Assembly (NCBI RefSeq): GCF_002278135.3
Contig: NZ_CP029425.2
Coordinates: 868,001-932,000 of the forward strand
Reading direction: 5' to 3'
Length of the DNA: 64,000 nt
Source: Bradyrhizobium ottawaense
GTDB taxonomy: Bacteria > Pseudomonadota > Alphaproteobacteria > Rhizobiales > Xanthobacteraceae
The position numbers and the translations under genes are program-made. This document shows positions 39,731-57,534 of the stretch, piece by piece; within the stretch, counting starts at the first letter, position 1; each line of letters opens with the position of its first letter. The notes below the pieces were generated by a model that worked only from the letters and a program-made list of their open reading frames with translations, did no database searches and was not told the origin of the DNA.

Positions 39731-39764
39731 GAGCCGGTGCAAGGCTGGTCCGACACGCGTTGCC

Positions 39765-39931
39765 CTAGATCAACCGCATCCCGCGCAGGCTGGCATGCCC
39801 GCTTTTGCCAACGATGATGTGGTCGTGCACGGCGATGCCGAGCGGTTTTGCGATGTCGATGATCGCTTTGGTCATCTGGATGTCGGCCTGCGAGGGCGAG
39901 GGATCGCCGGAGGGATGGTTGTGCATGAGCC
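39765..39931 (-). pseudogene. radC: Truncated radC (MPN/JAB domain), C-terminal fragment
   Basis: Read on the minus strand, about 55 residues end with the RadC tail: [19 protein letters not shown], then [20 protein letters not shown] and [18 protein letters not shown] at 39765. [11 protein letters not shown] is the JAMM metal motif. Upstream of LMHNHP the reading becomes RRRR and unrelated sequence, so the first two-thirds of the gene are gone. RadC-like genes are frequent passengers of integrative elements, so this scar could be a decayed element gene or a chromosomal gene cut by insertion. Confidence 0.88.
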
Positions 39932-40175
39932 TGCGGCGTCTATTATCTATTTGAGTTTGCTGTTATTTTAGATTCTGATCGAGCTGTAGGAGGCGGAGAC
40001 TGGGGCATGTAGTGGGTGATTGTTCGTGATAGTCACGAGAGTTCACGCTCGGTCCTGGCCGCTTCGATTGGAGTCCTTGTTTCAATGCCCGATCTGTCCG
40101 TGACATGCATTTCAGTGCGTATCGACGGCTTACGGACACCGCCGAAAGCATCAGCCTGAATGCTCAGGTTTTCCG
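39932..40175. other. Junction region without a gene
   Basis: About 245 bp of lower-GC sequence between the radC fragment and the defence gene. A 62-codon minus-strand frame (39963-40151) has no recognisable product or start signal. The break in radC near 39931 makes this the likely left junction of the inserted region. No direct repeat, tRNA fragment or integrase was seen. Confidence 0.5.
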
Positions 40176-41600
40176 TTAACGTGTCCTTTCATCGACGGCT
40201 TCCTCCAATACGTGCAACGTATCGCGCCGCTCGAACAGTAAAATTAGCTCTCTGACCCGGGCCGATTTGCGGTCGCCGGGAATTTCGTCAATGTCCACGC
40301 CCAGGAGAAAGCAAAGGTTCTTAAACTCTTCCATATCGAACGCCGTACACAGCTCATCGAACAATTTCTTACGTTGAGCTATCGAAATACGCGACTTCGT
40401 TGCCGCTACCGAAGCAACGGACTTCGGCCACGCCCCCTCCGAGAGGGAAACTGGGCGCGACTCAATGAAGCTTCGCAAGCACGAAGCCGCGGAATACGCT
40501 GCGTACTCTTGCCACATGTCATTCTTTTTGCCGTCGGCGAAGTCGCAGATGGCTCGGATCGTCAAGAATCCCACCTTCTTGACAGCGCTGAATGCCGCAG
40601 AAGCGACTCCTGCACTCTCCATCTCAATTGCGATGAGATCGCGTTGCAACGACCGAAGCTCTTGGGCAGCCTCGCTTGAAGCAATCACCTTCTCTCCAGA
40701 GGCAATTGGTCCGACATGAATTCTCGGCTCGATGGCGCTCGCGCTTTTCCCATCGGGCCTTGAAGGCAAATGTGCGCGCCACGTTGAGTCGGTCAAGTTC
40801 AGTATTCCATCCACGAGGATGGGGTCCGCCTGAAATTGCCGAGCTCGATGCTCCTGATGATTGGGTCGAACCTTCGAGAGCTCATAATAGAAAATGGAGT
40901 TCGAGGCCACGATATCGCCGAAGCCCTGATCCTTTCTAGAGATTCCACCAGCAATTCCATTCACAAGTACAAATCGCGGCTTCCATTTGTGGATGAGGTC
41001 CGATGTCGCATGTGCGGCATCGAGATTTCCCATCGAATGAAGGAGAGTGGCAACAACTCGATACGAGCCGCCGCGTCTTGTTGGAATCGTTCCGCGAAGG
41101 TACGTGCGGGTCGAATCCGATGTCGACGAAATCGGTACCAGCTCAGGAAAATAATGCTTAAGCGCAGCCAATTCCTTCCGCAACGCGACGACAACTGCGA
41201 AGTCGACTGATTCGTCCTCCACCTGTCGCGAGAGGTCGGTAGCCTGCTTGTCAGTAAGCTCGACAGCAACCGAGCTGAGAAATGCTGCGACGCGGCTCTC
41301 ATGGCGCCGTTTCATGAGAAGCAACGAATCCGCTGTGTAAGTGGTCGGATCCTGATCGACCAAACGATGATGCGTTGGACATAGGATGATCAAGTTGTCT
41401 GCGTCGTTGCGCGACTCTTCGGATTGCGCGGGATCGAATCTCGGCCCCCCGGGAGAGGCCGCACGAATGTGGCAGAGTTCGCCCAGTAATGCGCGAGATT
41501 GAGGCTGAACGAGCTGCGTTGTACATCCCGGGAAAGCGCATAGGCCCCCCGAAGAAGCGAACAGAATCTTTATCGAACGATCACTGGGTTGTCGTCGCAT
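40176..41600 (-). CDS. HNH nuclease - nucleoside phosphorylase - EAD7-like three-domain defence protein
   Basis: 474 residues, start at 41600. Residues about 10-105: an HNH domain with CAFPGC, ELCHIRAASPGGPRF, NLIILCPTHHRLVDQ (His44 and the C-x2-HH motif; same style as the HNH of Cap5). Residues about 130-380: a PNP/MTA-SAH nucleosidase fold with VVVALRKELAALK, RFVLVNGIAGGI, the ribose-binding IEMESAG, and the catalytic-Asp loop RAICDFADGKK. Residues about 405-472: LFDELCTAFDMEEFKNLCFL and LGVDIDEIPG, KSARVRELILLFERR, which match the effector-associated domain 7 (death-like adaptor) pattern. All three active regions look intact. Low-GC, divergent from the next gene. A toxic or immune effector role is inferred. 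Confidence 0.78.
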   Translation of the reverse strand: MRRQPSDRSIKILFASSGGLCAFPGCTTQLVQPQSRALLGELCHIRAASPGGPRFDPAQSEESRNDADNLIILCPTHHRLVDQDPTTYTADSLLLMKRRHESRVAAFLSSVAVELTDKQATDLSRQVEDESVDFAVVVALRKELAALKHYFPELVPISSTSDSTRTYLRGTIPTRRGGSYRVVATLLHSMGNLDAAHATSDLIHKWKPRFVLVNGIAGGISRKDQGFGDIVASNSIFYYELSKVRPNHQEHRARQFQADPILVDGILNLTDSTWRAHLPSRPDGKSASAIEPRIHVGPIASGEKVIASSEAAQELRSLQRDLIAIEMESAGVASAAFSAVKKVGFLTIRAICDFADGKKNDMWQEYAAYSAASCLRSFIESRPVSLSEGAWPKSVASVAATKSRISIAQRKKLFDELCTAFDMEEFKNLCFLLGVDIDEIPGDRKSARVRELILLFERRDTLHVLEEAVDERTR

Positions 41601-43813: not shown

Positions 43814-44601
43814 ATGCTTACTTTGCAGCAGATGGAAGAGGTAAGGGTTCGCCTAGCGCAGCAACTGATATTCTACATGCCCGTTAAGCTGTTTCCTATT
43901 GCGCAGAAATTAGCGTTTCCGATTCTTTTAGAGTTCACACGACTAGTGGATTTTAGGAATCTGGAAATTCCACCAGAGAAGATCAAAATTACTGACTTGA
44001 TCTACGAAGACAGGCTTCCGTCAGTGTTCGAGTCGTTTATCGCTCGGCGGTTTTCCGAGGGGAATAAGCAAGCGGAGTTGCGAGTAGCGGGAATCATTAC
44101 ACCAGATCACAAGATCGTCCTGGCAGATCGTAAAACGGCAGAGGGATTTCTAATAAAGGCAAACTCAGCGGTTTGGTATGAAATTGTAGCAAGCCTGCAA
44201 TCGGATTGGAGCCAAGCGTATTCACTTTCTGCGACGCGTTGGGAAGAGATCGTCGCTGGTGCCTTCGATAAAGCGGGGTTCGACGAGGTGACATTAACGC
44301 CACGCTCAGGGGATCACGGACGGGATGTCATAGCTGTTCGAAGGGGGTTGGTTGCATCAAGATCATAGGATCGGTGAAGGCGTATAAGCCGAGGAACGAG
44401 GTTTCATATGATGACATTCGTGCATTGCTGGGCGTACTCAGCGGGGAGCAGAATGCCTCTAAGGGAATCCTGACTACAACGTCGGACTTTCCGCCAAGGC
44501 TAATATCTGATCCGTTCATAACTCCCTTTCTGCCGACGCGTCTCGAATTGATGAACGGTGACAGCCTTCAAAAGTGGCTTGGTGGCCTCCTGAAAAAATA
44601 G
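43814..44601 (+). pseudogene. Mrr-type restriction endonuclease, frameshifted
   Basis: The first frame codes 184 residues (43814-44368), the second continues to 44601. Joined, they give an Mrr_cat-like C terminus: ATRWEEIVAGAFDKAGFDEV, RSGDHGRDVIAVR (catalytic Asp), then in the other frame GCIKIIGSVKAYKPRNEVSY (the xxK lysine) and VLSGEQNASKGILTTTSDF. The shift falls at the G5 run near 44340-44346; restoring one A before it would join the frames as RKGVGCIKI. The lysine motif is lost from the unshifted product, so it should be inactive unless the run slips. About 263 residues when repaired. Confidence 0.72.
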
Positions 44602-44636
44602 GCTTCTCCCGTTCGGATACATGCCTCTACGAGAGA

Positions 44637-44730
44637 GGGCTTGGGTCCGGACTTAATTGATCCACCAGGTAATCGCAGCGGCGAGGAGGATTGCGGACAG
44701 GAAGATGTCCGCGCGCTTGTCGCATCGGGT
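44637..44730 (-). mobile_element. IS5-family transposase C-terminal scar
   Basis: On the minus strand the sequence reads [20 protein letters not shown] then WIN and a stop (about 44654), the typical last residues of an IS5-family transposase. Only about 95 bp remain, ending near GGGTCCGGACTT, which may be part of a terminal repeat. It begins directly after the repaired Cap5 stop codon. No complete IS is present. Confidence 0.72.
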
Positions 44731-45866
44731 TTAGGGAATATCGAAGGTCCGTATGAACCCGTGCGATCGATTGTGTCGTAGAGCCGGAGGGAAAGATCCG
44801 ATTTGGGCATCCAGACGCGGCCGACCTCGACCGCCAGGGAGGCGGGAAGCGCGGGAAAAACATGCAGCAGCGTTCCCTCGCCATGCCGAGCCTTGATGCG
44901 GTCGTAGAGCCGTCGGAGTTCGCGCCGAAATGCGGCCTGATCGTCAGCTCGCCGCAAGACGTCGTTGTGAGGTTGATCCGCGCAGAGCGACCAGATCGCG
45001 GCTTCGTCGCCGAGAACCGCCTGGAGTCGCGCGTCGGTCACGGTAGCGCTGACACCGAGCTTTAGCGCGACCGAGCCTGACAGCCCGATATCCGGTTCGG
45101 TGACCTGGAATGTGATCGGGGGGCCATCGGACGCCCATCGCCAACTCGCGGGTTCGCGATGCCTTTGATGAACGACGGCCGGAACGATATCGCAGAGCAG
45201 CCGGCCAAGCTCGATCAGCAGCGGCTGCGGTGCGAGTGCGAATACGCTTAGATGCCTAATCTCCTGTCGCTCTACGCGGCCTCGCACCTTCGCTTCGAAC
45301 TGGCGTCTCAGGTTCTCGCGCTGGACCGTCCAATAGGCAGGCTCGTTGTCTCGAAACGCACAGCCTACCATTTCAAGATCCAACCTCTGGCCGCTGGCTG
45401 GGTGGCGGTCGGGCGGCATCGCCGAAAAGATCGCCTGCGTCGATACAAGCGCCTCGTTGTCACAAATGCTCGCCCCAAACCTGATGACGTGAGATGCCCG
45501 GTCTTCGTCGATGCCGGCAACGATCGCGATCCGGCCCTCGTGCTCGGCTTTCATAGTTAGCAGAACAGATTCCGGATGATCGGCGACGGCGTCAAGATCG
45601 ATCAGCTTGTGATGTCGGGCGCACATCAACATTAGATTTTCCAGACTACGCGCGAGCTGAGTCGACCGGATCGGATCGCCGCGCGGGCCGCCTTCGACGT
45701 CAGCCACGATGTGTGCGATGAAGCCGAAGATCCCGTCTTGCCGCCCGGCCACCAGGTCGCCGACCAAATCAGTATTGCATCCACGATATTGGCAGCGGCC
45801 AGCAGCCCGCGCCCACAGCGCCGATTGGACCTTTTGCGGAATGCTGCTCTTAGACACCGACGCCAC
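44731..45866 (-). CDS. cap5: Cap5: HNH endonuclease-SAVED CBASS effector (3' frameshift)
   Basis: GTG start at 45866, overlapping the E2-like gene by 17 bases. HNH domain, residues about 15-90: [48 protein letters not shown] domain, about 140-375: [20 protein letters not shown] and [20 protein letters not shown] then [18 protein letters not shown] senses a cyclic oligonucleotide and triggers DNA degradation by the HNH part. The expected tail GFIRTFDIP and stop lies in a different frame (stop at 44731), so one base seems missing near 44757. As it stands the protein reads on to 44568 with about 58 foreign residues. Confidence 0.87.
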
Positions 45867-46299
45867 CTGCTACGACGTGGCGGCCGCTCGCTGTCCATTG
45901 ACCCGTTGCGCGCCAGCCCTCGTAAGCGGCAAGCCACTCGATCACCCAGGGCACAGTTGTCTGCGAGAGGCTGTCGAACGGCGACCAATCGTCGGAATCG
46001 GGATCGAGCATGCATAGCGTCACTTCGCCATCCGAACCGTAGTACACGTGAGGGAGCCTACCCTCCGGGTCGCCCGGACGGTGCCGTAACGGCGGTGACA
46101 AGACTTTGACGCGTGGCTGGAGAATGCGCACGTCGAGCCGTTCGATCACCAGCGGCGCTCGATAAGTGATCTCGACCTGAAACGTCTGAAGCAAAGGCCG
46201 GAGAGGGCCCTGCCACGCCGCGATTGCGCCGTGGCGGCCGATGAGTTTCAAGTTCGGCCACAAGGAAGCCATGTCAGTGATCTGGGCGTCGACCGTCAT
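45850..46299 (-). CDS. E2-like CBASS accessory protein (type II-short)
   Basis: 149 residues from ATG at 46299; two GTG codons directly upstream are alternatives. Residues follow the bacterial E2-like pattern: [39 protein letters not shown] with Cys96 as the probable catalytic cysteine, then [20 protein letters not shown]. In type II-short CBASS an E2-like protein alone, without E1 or JAB partners, modifies and primes the CD-NTase. It sits between CD-NTase and Cap5, the usual order. Starts seven bases after the CD-NTase stop. Confidence 0.8.
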
Positions 46300-46305
46300 C
46301 ACCAC

Positions 46306-47556
46306 TTATCGGCGCTCTCCCATGTTGGTGTGTGCGCGAGCCGCGACTGGCGCCAGGCTGGTCGCCGCGCCGATGATCGCCGGCGCGGCGGGAACGAACA
46401 GGCCGCCGGAGCGCGTATAACCATGCTGCCGTGATTGAACTTGGCGCCCGAGCCGCTGGTTGAAAGCTTTGACAGAACGCGTGACGACCCGGTCCCCGAA
46501 CTGCCCGCGCAACCACTCCTGCAAGTCCTCCAGCTGCACGTCGCCGGTGCGGGCGGCTTCGAGCCCGTTAGCGAGGGTGTGCAGGTGGCGAGAATAGGTT
46601 GTCTGTTGCAGCTGAGATTCTGGCCAACGGTCGGTGAAACGCTCGACCGGAAATTCGGGGTTGGGCACGACCAGGAGCTGGCCGCGCTTCGCGGCGTCGT
46701 CGATCGCGCGGGCCGTCCAGCGCGCCTGCCGGATCAGCATTTCCGCAAGCCTCATGCCCGGACGGGCGGCATGGCCGGCATGGCACGACAACATCACCGA
46801 TGGCGGGATCCGGCCCGTCTCGGTCGCGTAGGCGATGTTGCGGTGCCGCTTGATTAGCTGCAGCGCGACCGTCGTCACGCTCTTGATGATGAGCGGCGTT
46901 TGCGGCGGAACGTCCTCGACGTCCGCTGCGGCGAAGGCGATTCCGGCCTGTTCGTACAGCTGACGATTCAGCGCCAGCGCGAACCGCTCCTCGGTAGGCG
47001 TTCGGGCGCAATACCACTTCCCGAAGGCATATGAGTTCATCGGCACATAGCGCGCCGGGTCGCTGCGAGTCCCCTTCTTCGCATGCGGGATCTCGCCTTC
47101 CTTCTCCTTCGGCGCCCGCCGCCGCGACGGCGTAATGTCAAGATGCATGCCGTCGGCGTAGTAGAGCGTGATGCACCGAGTTTGGCGCACGACCTTGCTT
47201 ACCGGGTAGCTCTCGAGTGCGGCTTCCAGGTCATCCAGCAGCGCCTCGGGACCGAGGTCGGGGCCTTCGATCTCGGCGACGATATCGAGATCGTACTCGT
47301 CGTCCGTGCCGCGGGTCGACGTGGTTGCGTCGATTGCCATGGAGCCCTGGGGATAGAAGCAGGCGACCCTGCCTTCGAGCGGACTACCGGGTCGTTCGAT
47401 GTAGCGTCGGACCGCCTCATATCGCTCGACCGCCTTGGCATGCAGGCCGGGCGGAAGCTGAATATTGATGGCAAGCTCGGCGAGTACCGCGTCCAGCGGG
47501 TCGGCAAAGGGATCATCAGGCCGATCATCGCGGCGCAGGGACGGAAAATTCGACAT
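46306..47556 (-). CDS. CBASS cGAS/DncV-like nucleotidyltransferase (CD-NTase)
   Basis: 416 residues from ATG at 47556 with AGAGGA upstream. Polymerase-beta-type motif: FYPQGSMAIDATTS (Gly-Ser 71-72), DDEYDLDIVAEI (Asp89 and Asp91), and the third carboxylate in MHLDITPS (Asp140). A conserved NSYAFGKWYCARTP follows the third strand region. On phage sensing it makes a cyclic di- or trinucleotide. E2-like plus Cap5 partners point to the clade G type that makes 3',2'-cGAMP, by inference from characterised CdnG-Cap5 pairs. All three catalytic acids are present. Confidence 0.88.
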   Translation of the reverse strand: MSNFPSLRRDDRPDDPFADPLDAVLAELAINIQLPPGLHAKAVERYEAVRRYIERPGSPLEGRVACFYPQGSMAIDATTSTRGTDDEYDLDIVAEIEGPDLGPEALLDDLEAALESYPVSKVVRQTRCITLYYADGMHLDITPSRRRAPKEKEGEIPHAKKGTRSDPARYVPMNSYAFGKWYCARTPTEERFALALNRQLYEQAGIAFAAADVEDVPPQTPLIIKSVTTVALQLIKRHRNIAYATETGRIPPSVMLSCHAGHAARPGMRLAEMLIRQARWTARAIDDAAKRGQLLVVPNPEFPVERFTDRWPESQLQQTTYSRHLHTLANGLEAARTGDVQLEDLQEWLRGQFGDRVVTRSVKAFNQRLGRQVQSRQHGYTRSGGLFVPAAPAIIGAATSLAPVAARAHTNMGERR

Positions 47557-52987: not shown

Positions 52988-53069
52988 AAAGTGAGAGGGC
53001 GGCGCTGCGCTTCGTGACGAGTTGATGTCGAGAGAGAGGCTCTCGGCGCCCGTCGCGGAGTATCATCCC
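52988..53069 (+). promoter_or_regulatory. Structured leader of the ParB-like gene (copy B)
   Basis: GACGAG (53016-53021) faces CCCGTC (53049-53054) with one mismatch; inner stem GAGAG (53030-53034) pairs CTCTC (53040-53044) around loop AGAGG. Same loop, same flanks and same distance to CCCATG as copy A, but a different paired sequence. Confidence 0.65.
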
Positions 53070-55163
53070 ATGGCGACTACCGTTCGCAAGATCACCCTTT
53101 CGCCCTCGCGCGATATCCCCTTCAACAGGCTCGTGCTGAGTCAGTCGAACGTCCGGCGCGTGAAGGCCGGCGTCTCGATCGAGGAGCTAGCAGAGGACAT
53201 CGCCCGCCGGGGCCTTCTGCAGGGCCTCAGTGTCCGGCCCGTCGTCGACCAGGTCGGCGCCGAGACCGGCGTGTTCGAGATCCCGGCTGGCGGCCGGCGC
53301 TACCGCGCGCTGGAGCTGCTCGTCAAGCAGAAGCGCCTCGCCAAGACCGCCCCGGTGCCCTGCGTCGTCCGCGATAGCGGCATCGCTGAGGAAGACTCGC
53401 TCGCCGAGAACGTCCAGCGCGCTCCGCTTCATCCGCTCGACCAGTTCCGGGCATTCCTGGCGCTGCGCGAAAAGGGCCAGTCGGAGGAGGAGATCGCTGC
53501 CGCCTTCTTCGTCTCCGTCAACGTCGTCAAGCAACGCCTCAAGCTCGCGTCGGTTTCGCCGACGCTGCTCGACGTCTATGCGGAGGACGGCATGACGCTC
53601 GACCAGCTCATGGCCTTCGCTGTATCTGGCGACCACGAGCGTCAGGAAGTTGTGTTCGAGCGGCTGAAGGCGTCCCACGACAAGCAGCCCTACGTCATCC
53701 GCCGCATGCTGACAGAAGGCGCGGTCCGCGCTTCCGACAAGCGGGCGCTGTTCATCGGGGTTGACGCCTATACTGCCGCCGGTGGCACGGTGCTGCGAGA
53801 TCTGTTTCAGGGCGACGATGGCGGCTGGATGCAGGATGTCGCGCTCGTCGACCAGATGGTGGCCGACAAGCTGAAGGCGGAATCCGAGACGATTGCCGCC
53901 GAGGGTTGGAAGTGGACCGAGGTCGCCCCCGATTTCGCTTACGGCCACGCTTTCGGTCTGCGACAACTTCGCGGCGAGATCGTCACCCTCACTGCCGAGG
54001 AGGAAGCGGCCCGCAACGCCTTGCAAGCAGAGTTCGATCAGCTGTCTGAGAAACACGCGGACGCCGATGAACTGCCCGACGAGGTCGACGAACGGTTGTC
54101 CGAGCTGGAAACAGCTTTGGAGGGGCTCGAGAGCCGGCCGGTTGTTTTCGACCCGGCCGAGATCGTGCGCGCAGGCGTCTTCGTCAGCATTGGCGCTGAA
54201 GGCGAGCTTCGTGTTGAGCGCGGCTACGTCCGGCCCGAAGACGAACCGTCGGCGGAGCCGGAGCCCGGTCTTGCTGAAGAAGATGGTGAGGCCGAACGGG
54301 CCAAGGCCGCGAGCTACGAAGGCGGCGAGCGCAACGTGTCGGTCGAGCCCGGCGCCGAGCAGGAGGAGGACGAGGGCCTTTCGCCCATCTCCGACCGGCT
54401 GATGACCGAGCTCACCACCCATCGGACACTCGGCCTGCGTCATGCCCTCGGTGAGCAGCCGCAGGTCGCCTTTCATGCGGCCCTGCATGCTCTGACATTG
54501 AAGACCTTCTACCACTACGGCTCGGATAGCTGCCTGGAGCTGGATCTGAAGAGCGTGAGTTTCGGCGCCCAGGCGCTCGGCCTGAACGACAGCGCCTTAG
54601 CCGAGGCGATCCGCGCTCGGCACGAGCGCTGGGCGAAGGCTTTGCCGAAGGAATCGGCCGACCTCTGGGACGCACTTCAGGCGTGGGACGGCGACAGCCA
54701 GGCGATGCTCTTTGCCCATGTCGTCAGCCTGTCGGTCAACGCCGTGCATGAACCCTGGAATCGGCGGCCGCGTGCGCTCGCTCACGCCGACCGTCTCGCC
54801 CGGGCTGTCGATCTCGACATGGCTGCGGCGGGGTGGAAACCGACCGTAGACAACTTCTTCGGTCGGGTGACGAAGACGCGAATCCTCCAGGCCGTGGTGG
54901 AGGCAAAAGGGCAGCGCGCCGCCGATCGGATCGAGCATCTGAAGAAGGGTGACATGGCTGCCGAGGCGCAGACCTTGCTCACCGACACGGCCTGGCTGCC
55001 CGAACCGCTTCGCACGCTGGGCCGAGCCATTGGCGACGAACCGGCGGTCGAATCTATAGTCGAGGAAACTCCAGAGCAGCCTAGCGAAAACAAACTGGAA
55101 GACGAAGAAGAGCGGACCGCCCACAATCAGCGAGCCGGTGAGCAGATTATGGCAGCCGAATAA
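53070..55163 (+). CDS. ParB/Srx-domain protein of an integrative element
   Basis: 697 residues from ATG at 53070. ParB-type N terminus: IPFNRLVLSQSNVRRVKAGV, IEELAEDIARRGLLQGLSVR, the EIPAGGRRYRALELL box and DSLAENVQRAPLHPLDQFRA, followed by an HTH (SEEEIAAAFFVSVNVVKQRL). Residues about 310-470 are acidic and coiled-coil-like. ParB CTPase-fold proteins segregate plasmids; in rhizobial integrative elements this long version is a conserved core gene of less clear function. No ParA is adjacent. Confidence 0.88.
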   Translation: MATTVRKITLSPSRDIPFNRLVLSQSNVRRVKAGVSIEELAEDIARRGLLQGLSVRPVVDQVGAETGVFEIPAGGRRYRALELLVKQKRLAKTAPVPCVVRDSGIAEEDSLAENVQRAPLHPLDQFRAFLALREKGQSEEEIAAAFFVSVNVVKQRLKLASVSPTLLDVYAEDGMTLDQLMAFAVSGDHERQEVVFERLKASHDKQPYVIRRMLTEGAVRASDKRALFIGVDAYTAAGGTVLRDLFQGDDGGWMQDVALVDQMVADKLKAESETIAAEGWKWTEVAPDFAYGHAFGLRQLRGEIVTLTAEEEAARNALQAEFDQLSEKHADADELPDEVDERLSELETALEGLESRPVVFDPAEIVRAGVFVSIGAEGELRVERGYVRPEDEPSAEPEPGLAEEDGEAERAKAASYEGGERNVSVEPGAEQEEDEGLSPISDRLMTELTTHRTLGLRHALGEQPQVAFHAALHALTLKTFYHYGSDSCLELDLKSVSFGAQALGLNDSALAEAIRARHERWAKALPKESADLWDALQAWDGDSQAMLFAHVVSLSVNAVHEPWNRRPRALAHADRLARAVDLDMAAAGWKPTVDNFFGRVTKTRILQAVVEAKGQRAADRIEHLKKGDMAAEAQTLLTDTAWLPEPLRTLGRAIGDEPAVESIVEETPEQPSENKLEDEEERTAHNQRAGEQIMAAE

Positions 55164-55183
55164 GCCGTCGAGAGCAACAACAA

Positions 55184-55216
55184 GGTCCGCTGGCGACGGC
55201 GGACCTTTTCTTTTTG
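55184..55216 (+). terminator. Intrinsic terminator after the ParB-like gene
   Basis: GGTCCGC (55184-55190) pairs with GCGGACC (55199-55205), followed by TTTTCTTTTT. The next start codon is only ten bases after the T-run, so it may work as an attenuator for the Toprim gene. Confidence 0.8.
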
Positions 55217-55225
55217 GGGATGACG

Positions 55226-56278
55226 ATGGCCGATAACGCACACGATCTCGCACGGCGTCTCGGCCGGCAGGCTGAGTCCGTGTGCCGTCACTACCTCTCT
55301 GCCGGACGACGGGAAGGTAGCTATTGGCTCGTCGGCGACGTCCGCAATACGCCTGGCCGCTCAATGTTCGTGCGGCTCAAGCAGTCGGCGAAGGGAGCCG
55401 CCGGCAAATGGACCGATGCCGCCACCGGGGAACATGGCGATTTGCTCGATGTCATTCGCGAGAGTTGCCGCCTGGTCGACTTCAAGAACGTCCTCGACGA
55501 GGCGCGCTTGTTTCTCAGCTTGCCGCATCCAGAGCCCGAGCCCAATCAGCCGCGGCTCCGCAATTCCAGCGCGGCACGAGGATCGCCGGAGGCCGCTCGT
55601 CGGCTCTTTGCCATGTCGCAGCCGATCGAACGCACACTCATAGAAGCGTATCTCCGCAATCGCGGCATTACGTCTTTGCACGAAACCGGAAGCCTGCGCT
55701 TTCACCCACGTTGCTACTACCGGCCCGACGACCACAGCCCGACCGAGACCTGGCCGGCGATGATCGCCGCCGTCACCGATCTGTCCGGCGAGCTGGCTGG
55801 CGTACACCGCACCTGGCTCGACCCGCATGGTTTCAGCGAGGCGACGCTGGGCAAGGCGCCAATCGACACGCCAAAGCGGGCGATGGGCGACCTGCTTGGT
55901 CACGCTGTTCGATTTGGCGTCGCTGGTGAAGTCATGGCGGCCGGTGAGGGCATCGAGACGATGCTGTCGCTCCGCTGCGCCCTGCCGACCATGCCGATGG
56001 TCGCAGCTCTCTCGGCAGCGCATCTCTCCGCCGTCCTTCTTCCGGATACGCTCCGCCGGCTCTACATCGCCCGGGACGACGATCCTGCCGGTGACGGCGC
56101 CATGGCGACCTTGATGGATCGGGCGCAGGAGGCCGGCATCGAGGCAATCGTGATCTCGCCACAGCTTGGCGACTTCAACGAGGATCTTCGCCTGCTCGGA
56201 TTTGACGCCCTTCGGGCCGCAAGCCGCGTACAGATCGCGGCGCAGGACGTCGCGCGCTTTATGGAGCTGGCGGCATAG
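55226..56278 (+). CDS. Toprim-domain primase-like protein (DUF7146 type)
   Basis: 350 residues from ATG at 55226; ATG at 55220 is close to GGGG and less likely. N-terminal zinc-finger-like or DUF7146 region (SVCRHYLSAGRREGSYWLVG, WTDAATGEHGDLLDVIRESC), then a Toprim core: MAAGEGIETMLSLRCA (Glu motif) and LYIARDDDPAGDGAMATLMD (DxD motif). These proteins are found on plasmids and ICEs and are thought to prime or assist element replication. Both Toprim metal motifs are intact. Confidence 0.85.
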   Translation: MADNAHDLARRLGRQAESVCRHYLSAGRREGSYWLVGDVRNTPGRSMFVRLKQSAKGAAGKWTDAATGEHGDLLDVIRESCRLVDFKNVLDEARLFLSLPHPEPEPNQPRLRNSSAARGSPEAARRLFAMSQPIERTLIEAYLRNRGITSLHETGSLRFHPRCYYRPDDHSPTETWPAMIAAVTDLSGELAGVHRTWLDPHGFSEATLGKAPIDTPKRAMGDLLGHAVRFGVAGEVMAAGEGIETMLSLRCALPTMPMVAALSAAHLSAVLLPDTLRRLYIARDDDPAGDGAMATLMDRAQEAGIEAIVISPQLGDFNEDLRLLGFDALRAASRVQIAAQDVARFMELAA

Positions 56279-56417
56279 CCGAAACGGGATGAGGGGCGAC
56301 GCGGCCGCTTCGTTACCGCACGGTCGGTGAACGTGTTTCCCCTCGGCGCCAGAGGACTGCCCCACGGCCTTCTGAGAGGGCGATCGGGCGGCAGGCGGCC
56401 CGGACCGGCAACCTCGT

Positions 56418-56604
56418 GGGCCGACTATTTTCCGTCGGCGGCAGAGCCGCCTTTACATCGCGAGACAAAATAGTCGGCCCCCTTCGGTCCTCCGCCAAGG
56501 CTCCGGCCCTCCGCTGCGCTGCGGGTGCAAGTCCGTTCCGCCTGCCGCTTTCGTCGCCATGAAGGCCGCGATGGGCGCGGTCGATCCGACGAGGGAAAAC
56601 CGCA
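56418..56604 (+). promoter_or_regulatory. Structured leader of the DUF2493 gene (nested hairpin, copy 1)
   Basis: Outer perfect 14-bp stem GGGCCGACTATTTT (56418-56431) with AAAATAGTCGGCCC (56467-56480); inner stem GGCGGC-AGA-GCCGCC (56437-56451). The segment CGCGAGAC just before the second arm, CCTTCGG after it and an AGGCCGCGATGGGCG-like stretch further on recur at 61370-61535, where the outer arms have a different sequence. The remaining leader is GC-rich. Confidence 0.7.
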
Positions 56605-57534
56605 ATGACCGCCGACCACGACAACGATTTCGAGCCGCACCACAGCTCATCCCCGACCGACCAGGTCCTCCAGGAACTCCAGCTCCATGGCTACCGTCCC
56701 TTCCACGATGATCCCGATCCCCGGGGGCTTCCTGAAGCGCGAATCCTCGCCGGCAGCGTCGCCGACATCTTCGATGCCCTGGTGGTGGCGCTGTCCGATA
56801 CCCGTCTTGAGCCCGACCTCGACGACCTGCTCTGGTCGATGGTAAACGTCTTCCATCGTGCGATCGACAGGATCGAGCGCGAGCTCGACGATAACGAGCT
56901 GGCCCAGCAGCGCTCGCAGCGGGAGCAGGACGGCAGCGAAATCAAATCCGTCGAGCTGGAGCGTCTGACGGCAGAAGGGCAAACGCTGATCGAGCGACGC
57001 AACGCCTTCGAGCTGATGCGCGACCAGGCCGCCGACGAGTTCGAACGCCACGCCCATTCCGCATGGCGGCCGCGCAACGGATCGAAGGTCAACCACCGCA
57101 ATCTGACGTCAGCGATGATCGACAGCCGCGATTTCCTGGCCGCGAAGAAGCGCGCCGAAAATCAGGTGCTCATGCCACGCGGACCGAAAGTCGCGCTCAC
57201 CGGTGGACTCGACTTCAACGACTACCGGCTAATTTGGGCTAAGCTCGACCAGGTGCACGCCAAGCACCCGGACATGGTGCTGCTGCACGGCGGATCGCCC
57301 AAGGGCGCCGAGCTGATTGCCGCCAAGTGGGCCGACAATCGCAAGGTCCCGCAGATCGCCTTCAAGCCCGACTGGACAAAGCACGCCAAGGCCGCGCCGT
57401 TCAAACGCAACGATGCGATGCTGGAGACGCTACCCATCGGCGTGATGCACTTTCCTGGCACCGGCATCCAAGACAATCTCGCTGACAAAGCGAAGAAGCT
57501 AGGCATCCCGGTCTGGAGGTACGGCGGCTCGTGA
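56605..57534 (+). CDS. DUF2493 (SLOG/YAcAr-like) protein
   Basis: 309 residues from ATG at 56605. The N-terminal 190 residues are helical and charged; the C-terminal DUF2493 Rossmann-like domain includes VALTGGLDFNDYRLIWAKLD, MVLLHGGSPKGAELIAAKWA and KVPQIAFKPDWTKHAKAAPF, the GGxxKGxD-like nucleotide-binding pattern of the SLOG superfamily. Frequent on rhizobial integrative elements; ligand unknown. Confidence 0.85.
   Translation: MTADHDNDFEPHHSSSPTDQVLQELQLHGYRPFHDDPDPRGLPEARILAGSVADIFDALVVALSDTRLEPDLDDLLWSMVNVFHRAIDRIERELDDNELAQQRSQREQDGSEIKSVELERLTAEGQTLIERRNAFELMRDQAADEFERHAHSAWRPRNGSKVNHRNLTSAMIDSRDFLAAKKRAENQVLMPRGPKVALTGGLDFNDYRLIWAKLDQVHAKHPDMVLLHGGSPKGAELIAAKWADNRKVPQIAFKPDWTKHAKAAPFKRNDAMLETLPIGVMHFPGTGIQDNLADKAKKLGIPVWRYGGS

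Follow-up and report, generated by a model that had tools for sequence, protein, structure and literature searches.

In the 64,000-nucleotide stretch of Bradyrhizobium ottawaense DNA analysed here (contig NZ_CP029425.2, positions 868,001 to 932,000; henceforth the window), the minus-strand open reading frame (ORF) at 40176-41600 encodes one protein of 474 residues that joins an N-terminal HNH nuclease domain, a nucleosidase domain of the MTAN/PNP type and a C-terminal effector-associated domain 7 (EAD7). HNH-PNP-EAD7 proteins form a real, conserved family. We propose, at a probability of about 0.48, that the protein acts alone as an abortive-infection effector, assembles with copies of itself and unites two enzymes in one chain.

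Three conserved domains in one protein

All three domains (residue ranges in Table 1) exceed their Pfam cut-offs, HNH_2 with 22.6 bits against 21 and EAD7 with 73.4 bits against 32. The N-terminal domain also matches HNH structures in the PDB, where the counterpart of H44 is residue 56 of 7rwm (position counted from the PDB alignment), which we take to be the catalytic His of AbCap5. A structure search with the model of the whole protein assigned the middle domain to the MTAN/phosphorylase fold; the PNP domain filled that search, which is uninformative on the HNH and EAD7 parts. E143, E328 and D353 presumably occupy the positions of E12, E174 and D197 in E. coli MTAN. The sequence-only reading of this stretch had named these three domains in this order, with a phosphorylase fold in the middle and EAD7 at the end, and the Pfam scores and the MTAN structure match bear it out. 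The only model segment with a predicted local distance difference test score (pLDDT) below 50 (residues 395-403) lies in the linker between PNP and EAD7. A Pfam scan that finds SAVED in the product of the neighbouring gene at 44568-45866 (E=2.6e-50) finds none in the 474-residue protein. The PADLOC model PDC-M60C, which we infer to be DtcC-like, matches residues 117-381 (E=5.8e-42); among the PADLOC models matched, no single one spans the entire protein.

Two largely overlapping searches of one protein collection, with the best 120 matches kept from each, listed 128 proteins altogether, 63 with the whole architecture, 26 partial and 39 other. Residues were counted over 64 aligned rows, namely the window protein and the 63 full-length homologues; since the window row is identical to one of these (P0001), the rows hold 63 distinct sequences. 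The HNH residues named in Table 1 are invariant (64/64), as are E326, D353 and K304 in the PNP domain, while E143 and E328 are each kept in 63 rows. Both catalytic centres thus appear intact across the family, as the sequence-only reading had said of the nucleosidase core of the window protein. Median identity of the homologues to the window protein is 0.59 for HNH, 0.63 for PNP and 0.63 for EAD7, against 0.32 for the linker, and we therefore conclude that all three parts are in use. Nine family members scanned individually each have all three Pfam domains, HNH_2 lying under its cut-off in three of them.

The PNP domain as enzyme or as sensor

According to our proposal, the protein would be kept inactive in the resting cell until an infection trigger causes its C-terminal EAD7 to pack with the EAD7s of other copies. 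This clustering would pair the HNH domains for DNA cutting and would activate the PNP domains to cleave a purine nucleotide or nucleoside between base and sugar; our best guess at this substrate is (d)ATP, by analogy with the Detocs and Cap17 effectors. DNA damage and nucleotide loss would together bring phage replication to a halt, perhaps along with the death of the host cell. That the protein is a partner-free immune effector, a nuclease plus a nucleotide-destroying enzyme whose own Death-like adaptor oligomerises in cis and is not a plug for an NTPase, is possible, and we hold it more tentatively.

The PNP domain has known relatives among effectors. Those of the DtcC (Detocs) and Cap17 type have a PNP domain of MTAN fold with the same catalytic Glu and Asp positions as the window protein, and passages of PMC10952713 and PMC11249213 report that they degrade (d)ATP. 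Compared with Detocs and DtcC, the window protein has neither a receiver nor a SLOG domain, carries HNH and EAD7 in addition and belongs to a separate PNP clade. The tree behind this last statement comprises 65 PNP domains (8 of 53 A1 rows in; twenty other family rows and 8 short-match rows left out), among which the 12 rows of the HNH-PNP-EAD7 family group as a single clade (support 100/99). No housekeeping enzyme is among the 65, and the tree is no test of a housekeeping origin because the one row resembling a housekeeping enzyme, L053, matched over too short a stretch to be included. Of 80 loci, 38 were picked by hand; one (L015) has no usable frame and another (L016) has stops inside the match. 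By score, the nearest PNP outsiders mostly occur with SAVED, SLOG or bDLD3. In these PNP-SAVED and PNP-bDLD3 conflict proteins a C-terminal sensor or adaptor follows the PNP, as in the window protein, whereas the three scanned (P0089, L009 and L012) had no HNH in front and a different C-terminal domain. The DtcC of a Detocs-like operon keeps the catalytic positions and is distant, on a long branch.

The chief rival to a stand-alone two-enzyme effector is drawn by analogy, and we consider it unlikely: HNH would be the sole weapon, PNP would act as a sensor or timer of a nucleotide or nucleoside signal of infection, perhaps hydrolysing it slowly, and would thereby gate the HNH, while EAD7 would stabilise the oligomer. 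The Cap5-type HNH-SAVED effectors (PDB 7rwk, 7rwm and 8fm1, which we take to be Cap5, the PDB rows reading 'SAVED domain-containing protein') have an N-terminal HNH of the same type; behind it they carry SAVED, which gates the HNH, in the place where the window protein has PNP and EAD7 instead. K304, invariant in the family, is also present in the PNP-SAVED and SLOG-PNP rows and absent from DtcC, which would allow a different ligand. A sensor, however, would not need the hydrolytic residues E143 and D353, which are kept, and P0089, a PNP-SAVED relative, has its PNP at the N-terminus, in the place of an effector, with SAVED behind it.

EAD7 and the search for a partner

The sequence-only reading had EAD7 recruiting a partner. 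Passages of PMC7159879 propose that EADs pair homotypically, with the second copy on a core component encoded in the same genome, and describe EAD7 fused to enzymes in effectors of NTP-dependent conflict systems. The window protein is likewise a fusion; it differs in having two enzymes per chain and a genome without a second EAD7 above the cut-off. A rather less probable alternative than the sensor is that EAD7 docks the protein in trans on an NTPase or receptor of another system, whose matching domain has diverged too far to be recognised. It accords with the published EAD principle and with the presence of EAD7 on STAND and TRADD-N proteins, as noted in passages of PMC8195603. The contrast genome G096, in which the HNH-PNP-EAD7 protein was not found, fits it as well, with two EAD7 genes outside this family, one of them a fusion with a ThsA macro domain. 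At one locus (L083, 1177-2121), EAD7 is joined to a Thoeris ThsA macro domain.

Against docking in trans stands the outcome of the partner searches, which covered eight carrier genomes and would miss a very diverged partner. The window's own genome (one contig) has EAD7 above the cut-off once, as has each of the seven further carriers. Searched with a profile made from the EAD7s of the family, all eight gave no hit below E=0.01 other than the protein itself; the next best in the own genome had E=0.62, and G399 had one of E=0.013 at L120, over 39 of 73 positions. Two EAD7 hits under the cut-off, of 20.7 bits in the own genome (L002) and 22.4 bits in G398 (L094), lie within what appears to be the same cyclase-type sensor gene and were rejected as chance. 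EAD1 gave no match above its cut-off in the eight genomes, and one below it, in G401, has an in-frame stop. The carriers are mostly drafts or metagenome-assembled genomes, and because four of them have one island in common and two another, they amount to only about four independent cases. Nor was any flanking ORF product common to the five settings compared (the window, L095, L005, L006 and L096; blastp E<=1e-5). With a second EAD7 above the cut-off in 0/8 carriers, a separate EAD7-bearing partner for the window protein is unlikely, and recruitment in its published homotypic form is not supported.

Modelled alone, EAD7 folds into four helices whose closest shapes in the PDB are CARD and Death domains, a weak match, with nothing at E<0.001 by Foldseek. 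An EAD7 profile (alignment of 13 rows) run against PDB sequences returned Phe-tRNA synthetase beta (E=9e-4) and SNAP25, and no Death domain. EAD7 is perhaps a Death-like helical adaptor, as the modelled shape would weakly suggest.

It is improbable that the C-terminal end is instead a docking site for variable sensors, the trigger being recognised by sequence attached or bound there. Seven of the 63 full-length homologues exceed 530 residues, with extensions after EAD7 that by eye mostly differ from one another; the other 56, the window protein included, have no extension, and some of the long ones may be joins made in gene prediction. Beyond EAD7, four homologues (P0026, P0031, P0039 and P0053) have in common some 80 further residues at the C-terminus. 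No Pfam domain was found at E<=0.05 in the extensions of the five long homologues scanned out of the seven, nor in the common extension in the two of its four carriers scanned.

Genomic setting and distribution

The gene of the 474-residue protein lies within an island, whose left edge (Table 1) is some 420 bp away from it. To the right of this edge the window is 99.9% identical (blastn) to three related Bradyrhizobium genomes over 38-44 kb, with 38.1 kb plus 4.8 kb in G035, 44.2 kb in G398 and at least 38.5 kb in G397, where the match reaches the end of the compared sequence. To the left, identity to the same genomes is 84-92%, with one 254-bp piece at 78%. This difference across the edge speaks for spread of the island by recent transfer. 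The idea of a symbiosis island was rejected: in the own genome the island, with its edge at 0.908 Mb, is not adjacent to the nod genes, nodA lying at 7.07 Mb.

Table 1. Features in the window (window coordinates) and the evidence for each
Feature	Position	Strand	Evidence
Left edge of island, apparently recently spread	39755..39765		blastn against three related genomes
HNH-PNP-EAD7 gene	40176..41600	-	ORF call, Pfam, 63 full-length homologues among 128 listed
EAD7 adaptor domain, residues 413-472	40185..40364	-	Pfam EAD7; four-helix model
Variable linker, residues 388-406	40383..40439	-	Median identity 0.32; low-pLDDT segment
PNP/MTAN-type nucleosidase domain, residues ~131-387	40440..41210	-	Pfam; MTAN fold; E143, E326, E328, D353
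HNH nuclease domain, residues ~8-110	41271..41579	-	Pfam HNH_2; PDB HNH matches; C21, C26, H44, N69, C74, H77, H78
Divergent neighbour, candidate defence gene PDC-S71, 617 residues	41845..43698	+	PADLOC E=6.4e-114
CBASS genes: HNH-SAVED effector, E2-like protein, CD-NTase	44568..47556	-	Pfam and PADLOC

A defence setting, as the sequence-only reading had supposed, was seen at the two loci with long context, the window and the Agrobacterium plasmids. In the window, the genes that come next are the divergent PDC-S71 candidate, a short fragment of Mrr type and the CBASS genes, which CapP-like and helix-turn-helix regulators accompany. The plasmid homologue is 45% identical (14 of the 23 matching plasmid records are Agrobacterium plasmids) and lies directly upstream of PDC-M60A, B and C genes. 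On pTiBo542 (L095, 9992-21401) it is followed by PDC-M60A/B/C and then by genes annotated as an ABC-three-component system, and this is a plasmid-borne defence cluster. Because of their gene content (one large, one receiver-like and one receiver-plus-PNP protein), we infer the PDC-M60 genes to be a Detocs-like operon, although PADLOC itself gives no Detocs call; the receiver match is below its cut-off, and Pfam matches nothing in the large protein. On this reading the Agrobacterium homologue has dtcA- and dtcB-like genes next to it, along with a third gene that bears a PNP. In the window no dtcA- or dtcB-like gene was seen: the five neighbours scanned match neither PDC-M60A nor PDC-M60B in PADLOC.

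The homologues had also been expected to be other than housekeeping enzymes and to lie in defence regions. The first half held as far as seen. The window protein misses the curated NCBIfam equivalog cut-offs, with 86.6 bits against 169 for NF004079 and 48.7 against 73.8 for TIGR01704, and its identity as a housekeeping methylthioadenosine/S-adenosylhomocysteine nucleosidase was rejected on this ground; such enzymes also lack the fused HNH and EAD7. The second half held in part. PADLOC models matched none of seven neighbouring ORFs at L005 and L006, two loci of metagenomic origin on short contigs, and this weighs against a role in defence. So might rarity: the protein occurs in 2 of 398 genomes sampled from the window's phylum, its own included. 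That it is a degraded or housekeeping protein with no defence role is nonetheless barely credible given the invariant catalytic residues, the missed cut-offs and the defence genes adjoining it in the window and on the Agrobacterium plasmids.

EAD7 itself is rare, with 4 carriers among 397 genomes of the window's order, the own genome included. In the phylum of G400, G400 was the sole carrier among 296 genomes, and the 194 genomes of the phylum of G403 gave no EAD7 match, although the control was silent too, so that absence is not established there. Viral contigs yielded one relative only, the PNP part alone, and phage records nothing except a match to the HNH part: a 'putative lysogenic conversion protein' of the P2-like phage P2-EC46 (AJ512680, hit H21), 34.5% identical to residues 1-109. 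Elsewhere (L085, 3-1659), a PNP-like fragment recognised by eye and an EAD7 match have transposase-like ORFs between them, as if a PNP-EAD7 gene had been split by an insertion element. A plasmid gene of Rhizobium sp. X9 (L096, 7992-9098) encodes 368 residues with HNH_2 below its cut-off, a diverged PNP visible to profiles only and no EAD7 match.

Several further observations concern the island. At its edge lies a minus-strand peptide (39756-39959), with a 14-residue stretch that resembles a RadC-type fragment. At 43814-44368 is apparently a truncated restriction gene, in which the Mrr_cat match spans positions 3-44 of 115 before the ORF stops. The HNH-SAVED effector (44568-45866) has an ORF of 432 residues here and of 378 in L003 and L004; the DNA differs from L003 by a single one-base gap across 1400 bases, and its C-terminus is therefore altered in this strain or assembly, while intact-looking copies exist. 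An SbcB-like exonuclease gene at 48909-50315 matches the PADLOC model RTasSbcB (E=1.2e-100). ParB-like, Toprim/DUF7146 and YAcAr (SLOG) genes, of kinds associated with plasmids or integrative elements, lie within the conserved island at 53022-57534.

Each part of the protein is known, and passages of PMC8195603 present HNH and PNP as alternative effectors at one position, not fused. The open-licence literature searched, which did not extend to the figures and source-data tables of EAD papers, yielded no description of the HNH-PNP-EAD7 order, in agreement with the sequence-only reading. The combination and the apparent independence of a partner are new to us.

Known effectors of this class mostly deploy one enzyme. 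If the proposal of a stand-alone, two-enzyme effector is true, the protein offers a compact test of whether EADs drive assembly unaided and of why a defence protein attacks DNA and nucleotides together. Its gene, of which the matched PADLOC models cover only parts, would be a candidate single-gene anti-phage system.
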